Shown: piece by piece, positions 31,490-39,133 of the stretch
Layout: every line of letters begins with the position of its first letter
Position numbering within the stretch: position 1 is the stretch's first letter
NCBI GenBank assembly: GCA_021162805.1
Contig: JAGGXZ010000212.1
Span: 1-39,186, forward strand
DNA: 39,186 bases
Origin: Candidatus Poribacteria bacterium
GTDB lineage: Bacteria; Poribacteria; WGA-4E; B28-G17
Direction of reading: 5' to 3'
Notes under the pieces: model-generated
The model's database searches: none
Seen by the model: only the letters and a program-made list of their open reading frames with translations
Told to the model about the DNA's origin: nothing
Made by a program: the position numbers and the translations under genes

Positions 31490-32080
31490 ATGGTCGATCC
31501 CCAAACGGTTAAGAAGGCTCAGAACGGAGATCACAAGGCCTTTAAAGAGCTTTACGATTCAACGAGCCTTGGCATTTACAACCTGATGTTACGAATGTCC
31601 GGAAACAAGGAGACCGCGGAGGATCTGACACAGGAAGTCTATCTACGTGTGTGGCGTTCTTTAGGGAGGCTGAAATCGCCAAAGGCCTTCGTGACATGGC
31701 TTCACAGGATAGCTATGAACGTCTACCGTGATTGGTCTAAAAGCGCCTCACACAGACTGGAGGAGATGAGGGTGGGGATGCAGGTTCAGGGTCAGGATGA
31801 TGATCCCGAGAATGATGAGGGTCTGGATCTGATACCTTCACCGCATCCCTTGCCTGATGAGGAGACTCTGAGAGGCGAGATGAAGGATGTAATCGAAAGG
31901 GCGATCTCATCTCTGCCGGAGAAATATAGGGCCGTGGTGATCATGCATCACATCGAGGGACTGGGGTTGAAGGAGATAGCTAAATCCCTCGATGTGGCCC
32001 AGGGGACGGTTATGTCGAGATTGGCAAGGGCAAGGGCCATGCTCAGAGAAAGATTATCCGGATATATCGAGGGGGATTGA
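31490..32080 (+). CDS. ECF-type RNA polymerase sigma factor
   Basis: 196 residues. Region 2 is DHKAFKELYDSTSLGIYNLM...AEDLTQEVYLRVWRSLGRL with the conserved TQExxLxxW core. An acidic linker (DDDPENDEGLDL) separates it from region 4, ISSLPEKYRAVVIMHHIEGL then LKEIAKSLDVAQGTVMSRLA-RARAMLRERL, the -35-binding HTH. It is followed by its anti-sigma after 3 bases. The target promoter type is not evident in the window. Confidence 0.93.
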   Translation: MVDPQTVKKAQNGDHKAFKELYDSTSLGIYNLMLRMSGNKETAEDLTQEVYLRVWRSLGRLKSPKAFVTWLHRIAMNVYRDWSKSASHRLEEMRVGMQVQGQDDDPENDEGLDLIPSPHPLPDEETLRGEMKDVIERAISSLPEKYRAVVIMHHIEGLGLKEIAKSLDVAQGTVMSRLARARAMLRERLSGYIEGD

Positions 32081-32083
32081 GCC

Positions 32084-32542
32084 ATGAGATGCGAGGAGGT
32101 AAGGGAGATACTTCCGGAATATACCGTTGGGGCGTTGAAACGGAGGAAGGCCAGGGATGTCGAAAGGCACCTCGAGATCTGCCCCGATTGCAGAAGGGAG
32201 TTGGCCGCTCTCAAGAAGATAGGAGAGATGATTGAAAATATGCCGCTTGAGAAACCTCCGGCCAACATCTGGGATTCCATAGCTGTCCAGATTGAGTCCG
32301 AATCTCAAGAGCGGGAAACCCTTTGGAGACGATGGCTTAAACCTAAGTTTATACCGGCATGGTCCGCTATTGCCCTGATAGGATTTGCCGTCTGGATCTA
32401 CCTGGGATTGATAAGGTTGCCCCAAGGGGAAACCCAACAGATGATCCCCCTCGAGCTGAAACAGCATGCGGTAGCCGCCTGGAACTCTCCCTTTTCCGAT
32501 ACCGCCGCCTTGGCATTATACATAGGGGAGGGAACCCGATGA
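32084..32542 (+). CDS. Anti-sigma factor with zinc-binding (ZAS) domain
   Basis: 152 residues. The N-terminal domain has the HxxxCxxC signature at H29-C33-C36 (ERHLEICPDCRREL), preceded by C3, the usual ZAS metal set. One membrane segment is at ~90-110 (IPAWSAIALIGFAVWIYLGLI). The short outer part has no recognised domain. It should hold the upstream ECF factor at the membrane until a signal releases it. Its stop overlaps the next start (ATGA). Confidence 0.88.
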   Translation: MRCEEVREILPEYTVGALKRRKARDVERHLEICPDCRRELAALKKIGEMIENMPLEKPPANIWDSIAVQIESESQERETLWRRWLKPKFIPAWSAIALIGFAVWIYLGLIRLPQGETQQMIPLELKQHAVAAWNSPFSDTAALALYIGEGTR

Positions 32543-33573
32543 GAAGGGAGGTTCTCATCCGGATCGCTATAATCCTGATGATGGCGCTTTCAGCTATGTC
32601 ACAAAGCGATGAGGTGACATCTCAAAACCTCAAATCGGTTCTAAAGGGCGCTTACGAAGCGGAGGATACCTTACAGTTGCACGGAATTAAAGAGACGATA
32701 GCTACTCTCCCGAGAGGAACGGTTAAAGTACGCGTGGAGTTTTGGCAGTCCAATGGGAGAAGGCTACAGATATACCTCACTGGCCCCTTGGCTGGCGATA
32801 AGATCCTGGAGATGAAAGGTGTTGTCTACTATATCTCACCCGGAGCCCGGAGAGTGACGGTGGCTCATCCGCCTCTCACTCCAAGTTCCACCCTCGATCT
32901 CTTACTGAGAAATTACAGGGTCGAGAGGGCCGGTGAAGACCTTATCGCCGGAAGAAGATGTGTTATTCTCTGGATAAAGCCCGTCTATAAAGGTAATCCC
33001 TCCAGAAAGGTATGGATCGATTCTGCAACGCTTTTCCCGCTTCGAAAGGAGAGTTATGACTCAAACGGTGAACTGGAATCGGTAAGCACGTTCACGAAGG
33101 TCGAATATAATCCTGATATACCTGAAGGGCTATTTAAAATACCCAAAGGATGGAGGGTTGAACGTCCGGGGTTCAAGCCGATCGATTTAGATCAGGATCT
33201 TTCATCCGAGCTCGGGTTTAAACCCATACTGCTCAAAATCCTGCCTAAGGGGTATGTCCTCTCCGGCGCTTTTATCAACGCTGCTCCGCCCGGCCCTGTG
33301 CTCCAGGTGAAATATACGGATGGAATGAACCAGATCTCACTCTTCGAGAGGATTAGGATTCGCAGGAGAGGTATGGGCATGGGATGGATGAGGGGACGAA
33401 GGATGATGGGAAGGAAGATGATGTGGGGCCGGAAGGCATGCATGATGTTTGAGGATATCGGAGTGCAAGCCGGAAAAGCGGTAATGGTGCCTCATCCCAG
33501 ACTTCTCATCATCATCGTCGGCGATGTTTCCGAGGAGATCATGCGTCATATCGTCGAGGAAAACTTCAGGTGA
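32539..33573 (+). CDS. RseB/MucB- or LolA-like envelope protein with Met-rich insert
   Basis: 344 residues from ATG 32539, coupled to the anti-sigma. Signal peptide MRREVLIRIAIILMMALSAM. Residues ~25-200 resemble the lipoprotein-binding fold of RseB/LolA (VKVRVEFWQSNGRRLQIYL, VVYYISPGARRV, RKVWIDSATLFPLRKESYDS, VSTFTKVEYNPDIPEGLFKI). A C-terminal domain follows (LPKGYVLSGAFIN, LQVKYTDGMNQISLFE). Between 278 and 303 lies a Met/Arg-rich stretch with nine methionines and a Cys at 301. It likely senses the envelope signal that controls the anti-sigma. Its stop overlaps the convergent methyltransferase stop by 8 bases. Confidence 0.8.
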   Translation: MRREVLIRIAIILMMALSAMSQSDEVTSQNLKSVLKGAYEAEDTLQLHGIKETIATLPRGTVKVRVEFWQSNGRRLQIYLTGPLAGDKILEMKGVVYYISPGARRVTVAHPPLTPSSTLDLLLRNYRVERAGEDLIAGRRCVILWIKPVYKGNPSRKVWIDSATLFPLRKESYDSNGELESVSTFTKVEYNPDIPEGLFKIPKGWRVERPGFKPIDLDQDLSSELGFKPILLKILPKGYVLSGAFINAAPPGPVLQVKYTDGMNQISLFERIRIRRRGMGMGWMRGRRMMGRKMMWGRKACMMFEDIGVQAGKAVMVPHPRLLIIIVGDVSEEIMRHIVEENFR

Positions 33574-36077: not shown

Positions 36078-36662
36078 GTGAGAAGGAGAAATCCGAAAAA
36101 TATAGATCTGGGAAGACATGCCCCGGGGGTGGTAAATGTAGTGGTGGTGACCCCAAAGGGCAGTAGAAAGGGATACAGATATGACTCCAAAAGACGGAAA
36201 TTCGTCGTGGATTGTACCTTCGGAGTGCCCGTCCCAACCGATTACGGTTGGCTGCCTCAGACTATCGGCGAGGATAACAACCCGCTGGAGACGATGGTGA
36301 TCACCAGATATACTGCCCGACCGGGATATATCTATCAGGCCAGACCGATCGGCACTCTCAAACAGAAAAACGGCGAACATAAAATCATATGCGTTATGCT
36401 GGGCGATGATCGCTTCGCCAGGATCCAGGATATCTCCGACCTGGACAATAAGACGATCAAGAGGATCGTCTCCTTCTTTGAACCCTTCTTTGAGTTCGAC
36501 GGATGGATGGACAGGGAGGAGACCTATAAGCTGATCGAGAAGTCACACCGAAGATACCTCGATTCGAAAACGAAAGGTAAGGGAGATGCCGCTGGAAACG
36601 ATAAGATGGAACCGTCAGAAGAACCAGATCGAACTGATAGATCAAACCCTGCTTCCGAATGA
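36078..36662 (+). CDS. Family I inorganic pyrophosphatase homologue with degenerate active site
   Basis: 194 residues, GTG start. The fold-defining text is present: VVVVTPKGSRKGYRYDSKRR, DYGWLPQTIGEDNNPLETMV, RPGYIYQARPIGTLKQKNGE and IQDISDL. But key acids of the E. coli enzyme are changed: the DGDPxD metal motif is D66-N-N68-P-L-E71, the D97/D102/K104 region reads KQKNGEHK, and the E20 and K29/E31 positions are T25 and G32/R34 by my alignment. It may bind rather than hydrolyse phosphates, or use another chemistry. The C-terminal ~30 residues are a polar extension that overlaps mtnA by 77 bases. Confidence 0.75.
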   Translation: MRRRNPKNIDLGRHAPGVVNVVVVTPKGSRKGYRYDSKRRKFVVDCTFGVPVPTDYGWLPQTIGEDNNPLETMVITRYTARPGYIYQARPIGTLKQKNGEHKIICVMLGDDRFARIQDISDLDNKTIKRIVSFFEPFFEFDGWMDREETYKLIEKSHRRYLDSKTKGKGDAAGNDKMEPSEEPDRTDRSNPASE

Positions 36663-37629
36663 GCTGAGATATATATCATGTAAGAGCGTGGATGAACTCT
36701 GGGAGGCGATCAAAAACCTGAGAGTCCGCGGAGCTCCCGCCATCGGCATCGCAGGGGCGTTGGGAGTTGTTCTGGGCATATGGAACAGCCGAGCCGAAAG
36801 GTATGAGGAGTTCAAATCGCAGCTCGATTCCGTCGCCGGTTATCTCGCCACCTCACGTCCCACTGCCGTCAACCTCTTCTGGGCGCTCGATAGGATGAGG
36901 GCTGCGGCCGAAAAACATAGGAACAGGCCGATATCCGAACTCAAGGGGATCCTGCTTGAGGAGGCTTACAAGATCATCGAGGAGGACAGGCGGATCTGCC
37001 GAGCCATAGGCCGTAATGGCGCCGAGTTGCTGCCTGATGAATGCACCGTCCTGACGCACTGTAACGCCGGCGCTCTGGCCACGGCAGATTACGGAACGGC
37101 GCTCGGAGTGATATATGCCGCCGTGGAGATGGGTAAAAGGATAAAGGTCTTCGCCGATGAGACGAGACCTCTCCTGCAGGGTGCCCGGCTGACGGCCTGG
37201 GAGCTCATGCAAAACGGCGTTGACGTCACCCTGATCTGCGATGATATGGCCGCGACCGTCATGAAAGATGGCATGGTCGACTGCGTGATCGTCGGGGCGG
37301 ACAGGATCGCCGCAAACGGCGATACCGCAAACAAGATCGGCACCTATAACCTGGCGATACTGGCTAAAGAACACAAATTGCCCTTCTACGTCGCTGCTCC
37401 CGCTTCCACCTTTGACCTCTCGCTGGAAAGCGGCGATCTGATACCGATCGAGCGGAGAAAACCGGAGGAGATCAAACGACCCTTCGGATTGAAGATCGCT
37501 CCGGAGGAGGTCAAGGTCTATAACCCCGCCTTCGACGTCACCCCTGCTCGATATATCACGGCCATAATAACGGAGAAAGGCGTCATCCATCAGCCCCTCG
37601 CGGAGAACATCCGAAAGATGCTGATGTAA
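36586..37629 (+). CDS. mtnA: S-methyl-5-thioribose-1-phosphate isomerase MtnA
   Basis: 347 residues. RVRGAPAIGIAGALG (47-61), THCNAGALATADYGTALG with catalytic C159, VFADETRPLLQGARLTAWEL, VIVGADRIAANGDTANKIGT with catalytic D239 and FYVAAPASTFDLSL match MtnA; these numbers correspond to C160/D240 of the Bacillus enzyme. It isomerises MTR-1-P to MTRu-1-P in methionine salvage, and some homologues act on ribose-1,5-bisphosphate or deoxyribose analogues. The start lies inside the pyrophosphatase-like gene, with AAAGGT about 7 bases upstream of the ATG. Confidence 0.95.
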   Translation: MPLETIRWNRQKNQIELIDQTLLPNELRYISCKSVDELWEAIKNLRVRGAPAIGIAGALGVVLGIWNSRAERYEEFKSQLDSVAGYLATSRPTAVNLFWALDRMRAAAEKHRNRPISELKGILLEEAYKIIEEDRRICRAIGRNGAELLPDECTVLTHCNAGALATADYGTALGVIYAAVEMGKRIKVFADETRPLLQGARLTAWELMQNGVDVTLICDDMAATVMKDGMVDCVIVGADRIAANGDTANKIGTYNLAILAKEHKLPFYVAAPASTFDLSLESGDLIPIERRKPEEIKRPFGLKIAPEEVKVYNPAFDVTPARYITAIITEKGVIHQPLAENIRKMLM

Positions 37630-37715: not shown

Positions 37716-39098
37716 ATGAGGCGATATGTTTTAAACGTCATGATGATCGCCCTGATGGGCTGGATCGCCTGGGGAAGCGCCTTATCTCAAACCCCCTCCG
37801 ATGTGATCGAGAGATGCTCCCCCGCCGTCGTTAAAGTTGAGGCCAAAATCAGCGTGAAAGAGGAGAAACTGCCCGATTACTTCAAGGAGCCTTTTGAGGA
37901 GTTCTTCAAGAAGCCCGGCGAGATCTTCCGCTTCCAGATCCCATCTCCTAAACCCCACGGCAGAGAGGAGATCCCAAAACCCACATCCTTGGGCTCCGGC
38001 TTCCTGATCGACGGTGAGGGACATATAGTCACGGACTATAACCTGATCGAAAGGGCGGAGGATATCAAGGTGACGCTGTCAAACGGCAAGGAGGTCAAGG
38101 CCGAGGTGGTCGGATCGGACGATGTCTCAGGCGTCGCTGTGCTGAAGGTCAATCCAGACGAGCTTGACGATATCGAACCCCTTCAGCTCGCCGAAACCGA
38201 ATCCCTTAAACCCGGACAGACCGTGATCGCCCTAGGACATCCCAAAGGGATGGATCTGTCGGCCAGCATGGGGATCATAAGCGGACTGGACAGAAACGTG
38301 GGGAAACTCTCCGGGTTGATCCAGACCGATGCCCTGATCCGACAGGGGATGGGCGGCGGTCCCCTTCTGAACATGGAGGGGAAGGTCGTAGGCATGAATA
38401 TAGCGGCTGAGGTTAAGAGGCTTGAGGGATTCGGCTTCGGATTCGCCGTGCCCGCCGATACGATCAAAAGGGTCTCCGAATCGCTCATCCGATCCGGAAC
38501 GGTCAGAAGGGGATACCTCGGCGTCTATATATCCTCCATAGATGCCGATCTGGCCAGGAAGCTGAAGCTCGGAAGCAGGGAAGGCGTGCTGATAACGGAG
38601 GTCATGCCCGGCTCCCCCGCCGAAAAGGCCGGATTTAAAAACGGCGACGTGGTCATCGAGGTGGACGGAGTGAGGGTTAAAGGCCCCACCCAGTTCCGGC
38701 AGCTGATCCTCAACACCGAACCCGGGACCGAGACCAACATGAAGGTGATCCGCGATGGTAAGGAGATCGAACTGAAGGTCAAGATAGGAGAACGAGCCGG
38801 TGAAGGGAAAACCCCCAGCTTGTTCACCTGGCGAGGTATATCGCTGCAGGAGATGACGGATGAGCTGGCGAAGAGGTTCGGATATGAAGGCGAGGAGGGC
38901 GTGCTCGTGGCGAACGTCAAATCCGGATCTCCCGGATATGAGGCCGGCATCCAGCCCGGCGACCTGATAACGGACGTCGAGAGGAAACCTGTCAGCTCGA
39001 TCGATCAGTTTAAGGAGAGGGTCAAAGGATTAAAGGGCGATGTATTGCTACATCTCAGACGGGGCAAAGGGGCGCTTTTCGTGGTGGTGAAAAAGTAG
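37716..39098 (+). CDS. HtrA/DegQ-like protein lacking the catalytic triad, two PDZ domains
   Basis: 460 residues. Signal peptide MRRYVLNVMMIALMGWIAWG...ALSQ places it outside the cytoplasm. The trypsin-like domain (~27-255) keeps the DegP/DegQ text: SPAVVKVEA, GSGFLIDGEGHIVTD, GSDDVSGVAVLKV, GQTVIALGHPKG, GIISGLDR, FGFAVPADTIK. The catalytic positions are changed: the His of TNxHV is N109 (TDYNLIE), the Asp of TDLAV is G139 (SGVAV), and the Ser of GNSGGP is G213 (GMGGGPLL). PDZ1 (~263-355: RRGYLGVYI, GSPAEKAGFKNGDVV) and PDZ2 (~368-455: GSPGYEAGIQPGDLI) are intact. It is probably a chaperone or scaffold rather than a protease. SD GGAGG. Confidence 0.9.
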   Translation: MRRYVLNVMMIALMGWIAWGSALSQTPSDVIERCSPAVVKVEAKISVKEEKLPDYFKEPFEEFFKKPGEIFRFQIPSPKPHGREEIPKPTSLGSGFLIDGEGHIVTDYNLIERAEDIKVTLSNGKEVKAEVVGSDDVSGVAVLKVNPDELDDIEPLQLAETESLKPGQTVIALGHPKGMDLSASMGIISGLDRNVGKLSGLIQTDALIRQGMGGGPLLNMEGKVVGMNIAAEVKRLEGFGFGFAVPADTIKRVSESLIRSGTVRRGYLGVYISSIDADLARKLKLGSREGVLITEVMPGSPAEKAGFKNGDVVIEVDGVRVKGPTQFRQLILNTEPGTETNMKVIRDGKEIELKVKIGERAGEGKTPSLFTWRGISLQEMTDELAKRFGYEGEEGVLVANVKSGSPGYEAGIQPGDLITDVERKPVSSIDQFKERVKGLKGDVLLHLRRGKGALFVVVKK

Positions 39099-39102
39099 GG
39101 AC

Positions 39103-39125
39103 GAGGCATTCAAGAAGAATGCCTC
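39103..39125 (+). terminator. GAGGCATTC/GAATGCCTC hairpin after the HtrA-like gene (repeat copy 2)
   Basis: A perfect 9-base stem with the 5-base loop AAGAA starts 4 bases after the stop codon, followed by GCCCTTACTTGATTT. The T run is weak, so termination is plausible rather than certain. The sequence is related to the hairpin at 24253-24276. Confidence 0.55.
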
Positions 39126-39133
39126 GCCCTTAC

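Follow-up and report, generated by a model that had tools for sequence, protein, structure and literature searches.

What does an HtrA protein do once it can no longer cut? The question is raised by a gene in the window, the whole stretch of 39,186 nucleotides analysed here (contig JAGGXZ010000212.1 of a Candidatus Poribacteria metagenome-assembled genome, assembly GCA_021162805.1). HtrA proteins unite chaperone and protease functions. The product of this gene resembles an envelope quality-control protease, with the architecture of DegP/DegQ, and lacks the catalytic triad. Its layout is as follows.

37716..39098, + strand: pseudo-HtrA gene, 460 aa, DegP/DegQ architecture without a catalytic triad
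37716..37790, + strand: signal-peptide-like N terminus, aa 1-25, recognised by eye and from a helix at residues 2-20 of the model
37851..37982, + strand: LA-loop-like insertion, aa 46-89, Phe-rich, with low model confidence
37986..38480, + strand: trypsin-like (pseudo)protease domain, aa 91-255, from Pfam and the model
38502..38795, + strand: PDZ1, aa 263-360, from Pfam and the model
38826..39086, + strand: PDZ2, aa 371-457, from Pfam and the model

The reading frame begins with ATG and stays open through all 460 codons without a frameshift, and its codon-position GC is normal for the genome and resembles that of its neighbours. Pfam places Trypsin_2 (PF13365) at aa 93-227 with 107.5 bits (E 1.3e-30; cut-off 27.6), followed by PDZ_2 in two stretches (94.9 bits), the domain order of the HtrA/Do proteins. 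The carboxylate-binding-loop motif YLGV is retained in the PDZ1 sequence, and the column of F64 in the LA-loop-like insertion is the same as in active HtrAs. Narrower families do not accommodate the protein. It scores 364.7 bits with the Do subfamily TIGR02037, below the curated cut-off of 416.2, and 219.4 bits with the DegS equivalog TIGR02038 (cut-off 422.95); DegS has one PDZ domain and a membrane anchor, and the two PDZ domains of the window protein also separate it from that family. The MamO model NF040961 gives 64.6 bits against a cut-off of 800.

An AlphaFold2 model of the protein has a mean pLDDT of 89.3, with most protease and PDZ residues above 90. The closest PDB folds are Legionella DegQ and E. 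coli DegP, whose protease plus PDZ1 chains reach TM 0.85-0.89 of the target. Because active homologues were included in the alignment supplied to AlphaFold, a DegQ fold is expected, and the model indicates compatibility rather than proof. A second homologue (from genome G042, introduced below) was modelled with a pLDDT of 79.7, its strands and helices following one another as in the first model. The initial annotation described an unshifted frame, a preserved fold and two intact PDZ domains, and the open frame, the Pfam domains and the predicted DegQ fold agree with it.

It also placed the three catalytic positions at the residues below, and alignment with the E. coli DegP chain, whose His, Asp and Ser fall opposite these residues, arrives at the same columns, as do MAFFT alignments with 75-188 homologues.

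38040..38042, + strand: N109 (AAC) in place of the catalytic His
38130..38132, + strand: G139 (GGC) in place of the catalytic Asp
38352..38354, + strand: G213 (GGC) in place of the catalytic Ser, GMGGG for GNSGG

The protein therefore lacks the His-Asp-Ser triad by which active HtrA/Do serine peptidases are recognised. Further residues of the active consensus are lost from its catalytic motifs, namely N107, V110, T184, A190, N209 and N212.

Homologues with the same kind of loss are found in two families of Poribacteria, here coded f1 and f6. The window genome (G000) belongs to f1, in the same class as G042 (OY282444.1, 'uncultured Poribacteria bacterium'), the closest complete genome with a homologue of the window type. 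A profile search of 85 Poribacteria genomes recovered full-length members in G042, G035, G022, G065, G064, G006 and G061, all of f6 and each scoring at least 544 bits, against 364 bits for the top active homologue. No member reached 544 bits in G062 and G063, also of f6. In the sole other f1 genome, G001, the gene lies in two parts at the ends of contigs (L082 and L037), which share 98.4% identity over 317 bases, and the joined protein has a single PDZ domain, PDZ2 being lost. The family thus comprises nine homologues (f1, 2/2 genomes; f6, 7/9) and is missing from most of the Poribacteria searched. The 80 best loci of a contig search held no orthologue outside Poribacteria, the one exception being itself a Poribacteria record (L130). 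A search of 82 genomes from the KSB1-type phylum likewise gave no orthologue: its top score was 383 bits, and full-length members reach at least 544, with profiles that differ slightly.

In the His/Asp/Ser columns the window protein reads N/G/G and that of G001 A/N/G. Among the f6 members, G042, G035 and G064 read E/G/G, G022 G/G/G, G065 D/G/G, G006 E/G/A and G061 H/G/G. Asp and Ser are absent in 9/9 members, replaced by Gly except for one Asn and one Ala, respectively, and the His column varies (one H, the rest N, A, E, G or D). As none of the nine retains Asp or Ser and G061 still has His, the loss of Asp and Ser probably came before that of His, although a reversion to His in G061 is possible. 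The initial annotation had looked to relatives for the same triple loss, or for random drift at these positions that would undercut it. The loss of Asp and Ser is fixed, and drift is confined to the His column. Among 189 homologues read, which cover part of the lower-scoring paralogues in other genomes, 175 have H/D/S, two have H/E/S and one is a fragment; the other departures from the triad are solely clade members or the second triad-less paralogue described below. The nine sequences still group in one clade, of single origin, when the catalytic-motif columns are left out of the tree (ultrafast bootstrap 97, SH-aLRT 98).

The window genome contains five Trypsin_2 genes. Three of them (L001, L002 and L004) carry H/D/S, so the active HtrA that the earlier reading proposed to look for in the same genome is present. 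An intact DegQ-like paralogue is also found in G001 and in f6 genomes. The fifth gene, L005, is a second triad-less HtrA (L249 6891-8246 on G000:C105, equal to L005 1315-2670). Its triad columns read L/G/G, its protease domain has no His, and a single PDZ domain is followed by an FlgD-Ig-like C terminus. Upstream of it on the same strand lie genes for an ECF sigma factor, an anti-sigma-like protein, a SPASM-type radical SAM protein and a glycosyltransferase-like protein. No orthologue of L005 was recognised in the 85 Poribacteria genomes. With catalytic columns removed it falls outside the nine-member clade (26/52 support) on a long branch, and from these sequences its triad loss is probably separate from that of the clade. 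A common origin was considered but is not supported: the two were grouped in a first tree that included the catalytic columns, and the grouping did not hold after their removal and the addition of outgroups.

Losses were tallied over those columns that are conserved in 85% or more of the active proteins. In the clade they amount to 11/17 catalytic-motif columns, 10/32 other protease-domain columns and 1/15 PDZ columns; its active sister clades have lost 0/17, 0-3 and 0-4, respectively. For the two f1 members the losses are 7/17, 4/32 and 0/15. V110L and A190G are fixed in 9/9 members and rare elsewhere, and the L3-type Arg193 and structural columns are retained in 8-9/9. Selection was measured among five genomes of the f6 genus g14, where dS is unsaturated (0.36-0.94). 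There the dN/dS of the pseudo-HtrA is 0.17-0.26 in the dead protease domain, 0.18-0.27 in PDZ1 and 0.11-0.23 in PDZ2. The active DegQ-like orthologue, in three g14 genomes, gives 0.07-0.11, 0.12-0.15 and 0.16-0.18. The dead protease domain of g14 is relaxed about two-fold, yet clearly selected. In the window lineage dN/dS is not measurable, as identity to the nearest relative is no more than 39%. The earlier view of constrained rather than decaying sequence stands on the purifying dN/dS of g14 and on the lack of stops and frameshifts; the comparison of protease with PDZ domains that it called for applies to g14 only. We place the proteins in a working class of HtrA-fold pseudoproteases, which is not a database family: the fold is kept, the triad is lost and selection is seen in f6.

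The surroundings of the gene are less informative. Its immediate neighbours in the window are as follows.

36586..37629, + strand: upstream neighbour of the MtnA/IF-2B family (mtnA), 86 bp before the pseudo-HtrA gene
39099..39129, + strand: hairpin of 13 pairs, immediately 3' of the stop codon

The hairpin is a possible terminator, although the whole scan shows no hairpin excess over chance, and the contig ends at 39186, 88 bases past the gene. An inorganic pyrophosphatase frame (36078-36662) overlaps the MtnA-like frame by 77 bases (36586-36662) in another frame, and one start or end may be misplaced. The neighbour in G001 is a sugar kinase. In f6 the neighbours are a cytochrome-like membrane protein and uridine kinase (g14), hisG (G006) and nuoA/nuoB (G061). 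A conserved operon is ruled out, as the neighbours differ between the families and none is common to f1 and f6. In g14 the gene after the pseudo-HtrA, in the same orientation, encodes a membrane protein that has CxxCH motifs but no Pfam match (L053 5519-6472, L048 2720-3616, L050 2739-3638).

What has been kept (barrel, LA-loop-like segment, PDZ binding loops) are the features with which HtrA proteins oligomerise and hold clients, and what has been lost are those with which they cut. The simplest reading is a pseudoprotease of the envelope (periplasm) with the DegP/DegQ fold that serves as a non-cutting, PDZ-driven client-binding chaperone or adaptor, to which we give a probability of about 0.5. 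Protease-dead DegP keeps chaperone activity. A DegP/DegQ-like paralogue in the ancestor of the two families would have lost Asp and Ser, which would have freed the other catalytic motifs from constraint while the barrel, the LA-loop-like segment and the PDZ peptide-binding domains were retained. The pseudo-HtrA would oligomerise as other HtrAs do. Its PDZ domains may capture unfolded or C-terminal peptides of envelope proteins, and such clients could be held or delivered uncut, side by side with the cell's intact HtrA paralogues. Against this reading, no informative conserved neighbour appears in the loci compared. It is not a core chaperone, since it is absent from most Poribacteria and from 2/9 f6 genomes. 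The missing PDZ2 of the G001 member and the restriction of the dN/dS values to g14 also count against it.

Several characterised systems bear on these roles. The clade resembles DegP/DegQ in domain order, predicted fold, the LA-loop-like segment, the structural Gly/Pro/Arg columns and the PDZ ligand-binding loops. It differs in lacking Asp and Ser, in the window protein His too, and in most catalytic-motif columns. PflC of Campylobacter, compared by description, likewise has an HtrA fold without a catalytic triad, but the two differ in that PflC is a shorter protein of the flagellar medial disk in a different phylum; its C-terminal PDZ domain regulates oligomerisation (PMC12222027). MamO and the inactive MamE copies are Trypsin_2 pseudoproteases beside an active homologue. 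MamO has Thr for Ser and a metal-binding His pair, and promotes MamE-dependent proteolysis (PMC4794232). These, however, are magnetosome-island proteins, and no magnetosome genes are seen here. Inactive plant and cyanobacterial Degs also retain a degenerate HtrA domain (PMC3473262, PMC4877387). The second, inactive protease domain of AtDeg7 serves trimerisation (PMC3473262), and Deg5 and Deg8 form hetero-oligomers (PMC4877387). AtDeg7 differs in having an active domain within the same chain, and the inactive Degs come from other lineages. The suggestion that loss of the whole triad goes beyond known single-residue pseudo-HtrAs is overtaken by PflC, MamO and inactive MamE, and the inactive Degs. 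The Poribacteria clade is a new, unstudied lineage of a protein type already documented, and none of the papers searched names Poribacteria together with DegP.

Readings that deny a function without cutting fare poorly. Decay into a pseudogene is largely refuted, as is an error of assembly or sequencing: a single base could separate each replacement from an active codon, but the Asp and Ser losses recur in eight further genomes, stops and frameshifts are absent, dN/dS is well below 1, and the loss is concentrated in the catalytic motifs with the PDZ domains retained. That the protein is still a protease acting through other residues can be set aside almost entirely. Its His residues are His81, His103, His175 and His446, none of them in the catalytic column; although His103 and His175 lie near the catalytic motifs in sequence, neither is conserved, and a conserved alternative His sought among the clade members was not found. 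In the G001 orthologue, His is missing everywhere after residue 3, within the signal-peptide-like N terminus, which makes a relocated His-dependent triad impossible there, and no conserved nucleophile takes the place of Ser in the clade.

The functional alternatives are harder to separate from the chaperone or adaptor, which ranks first, ahead of a partner of active HtrA and then a PflC-like scaffold, an order that the evidence discriminates weakly. A regulatory partner, forming mixed oligomers with an intact paralogue such as L001 or acting as its allosteric switch, is a tentative second choice. The coexistence with an intact DegQ-like paralogue, the retention of Arg193 and the precedents of MamO/MamE (PMC4794232), Deg5/Deg8 hetero-oligomers (PMC4877387) and the dead AtDeg7 domain (PMC3473262) favour it; genetic linkage to an active HtrA is absent, identity to L001 is only 33-36%, and G062 and G063 hold active HtrAs with no pseudo-HtrA detected. 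In a related and somewhat more speculative form, the clade would serve the Poribacteria envelope protease system as a dedicated subunit, regulatory or structural but not catalytic: an ancient dead HtrA retained for gating or assembling an active one. If so, the MamE/MamO principle would have a further, independent instance outside magnetosomes. The drifting His column and lost cleft residues suit a role independent of the cleft, as in a structural scaffold of an envelope machine whose fold and oligomerisation surfaces serve as a building block, for which the triad-less PflC is a model (PMC12222027). Such a scaffold is unlikely here, as machine genes are absent nearby, in the window and relatives, and the PDZ columns are conserved, perhaps needlessly for a pure scaffold. 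A peptide sensor of an envelope-stress sigma pathway seems quite improbable. It is brought to mind by a row of ECF sigma, zinc-finger anti-sigma and RseB/MucB-like genes at 31490-33573, 4.1 kb upstream of the pseudo-HtrA. L005 likewise lies downstream of an ECF sigma/anti-sigma pair (L249 3161-4293), and no sigma gene was detected within about 4-6 kb of the three intact paralogues. However, an opposite-strand methyltransferase and three housekeeping genes intervene in the window. RseB-like matches occur in 15/16 Poribacteria tested, mostly with a sigma gene near, and no HtrA adjoins the module in the loci read. The f6 pseudo-HtrAs have no sigma gene nearby and G001 has no RseB match, so the linkage is not conserved in relatives.

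Dead HtrAs kept by evolution are natural separation-of-function mutants. The clade exhibits an order of decay (Asp and Ser in 9/9, His drifting) while the PDZ domains stay selected, and with active and dead paralogues in one cell it lets an HtrA role without cutting be tested. It also counsels caution in annotation, as such genes are likely labelled serine proteases in uncultured bacteria. A different departure from the triad is seen in the two H/E/S homologues, L038 3663-5234 (G004) and L124 2898-4553 (a KSB1-type bacterium): Asp is replaced by Glu, the remaining catalytic motifs are intact, and the hosts are from different phyla.
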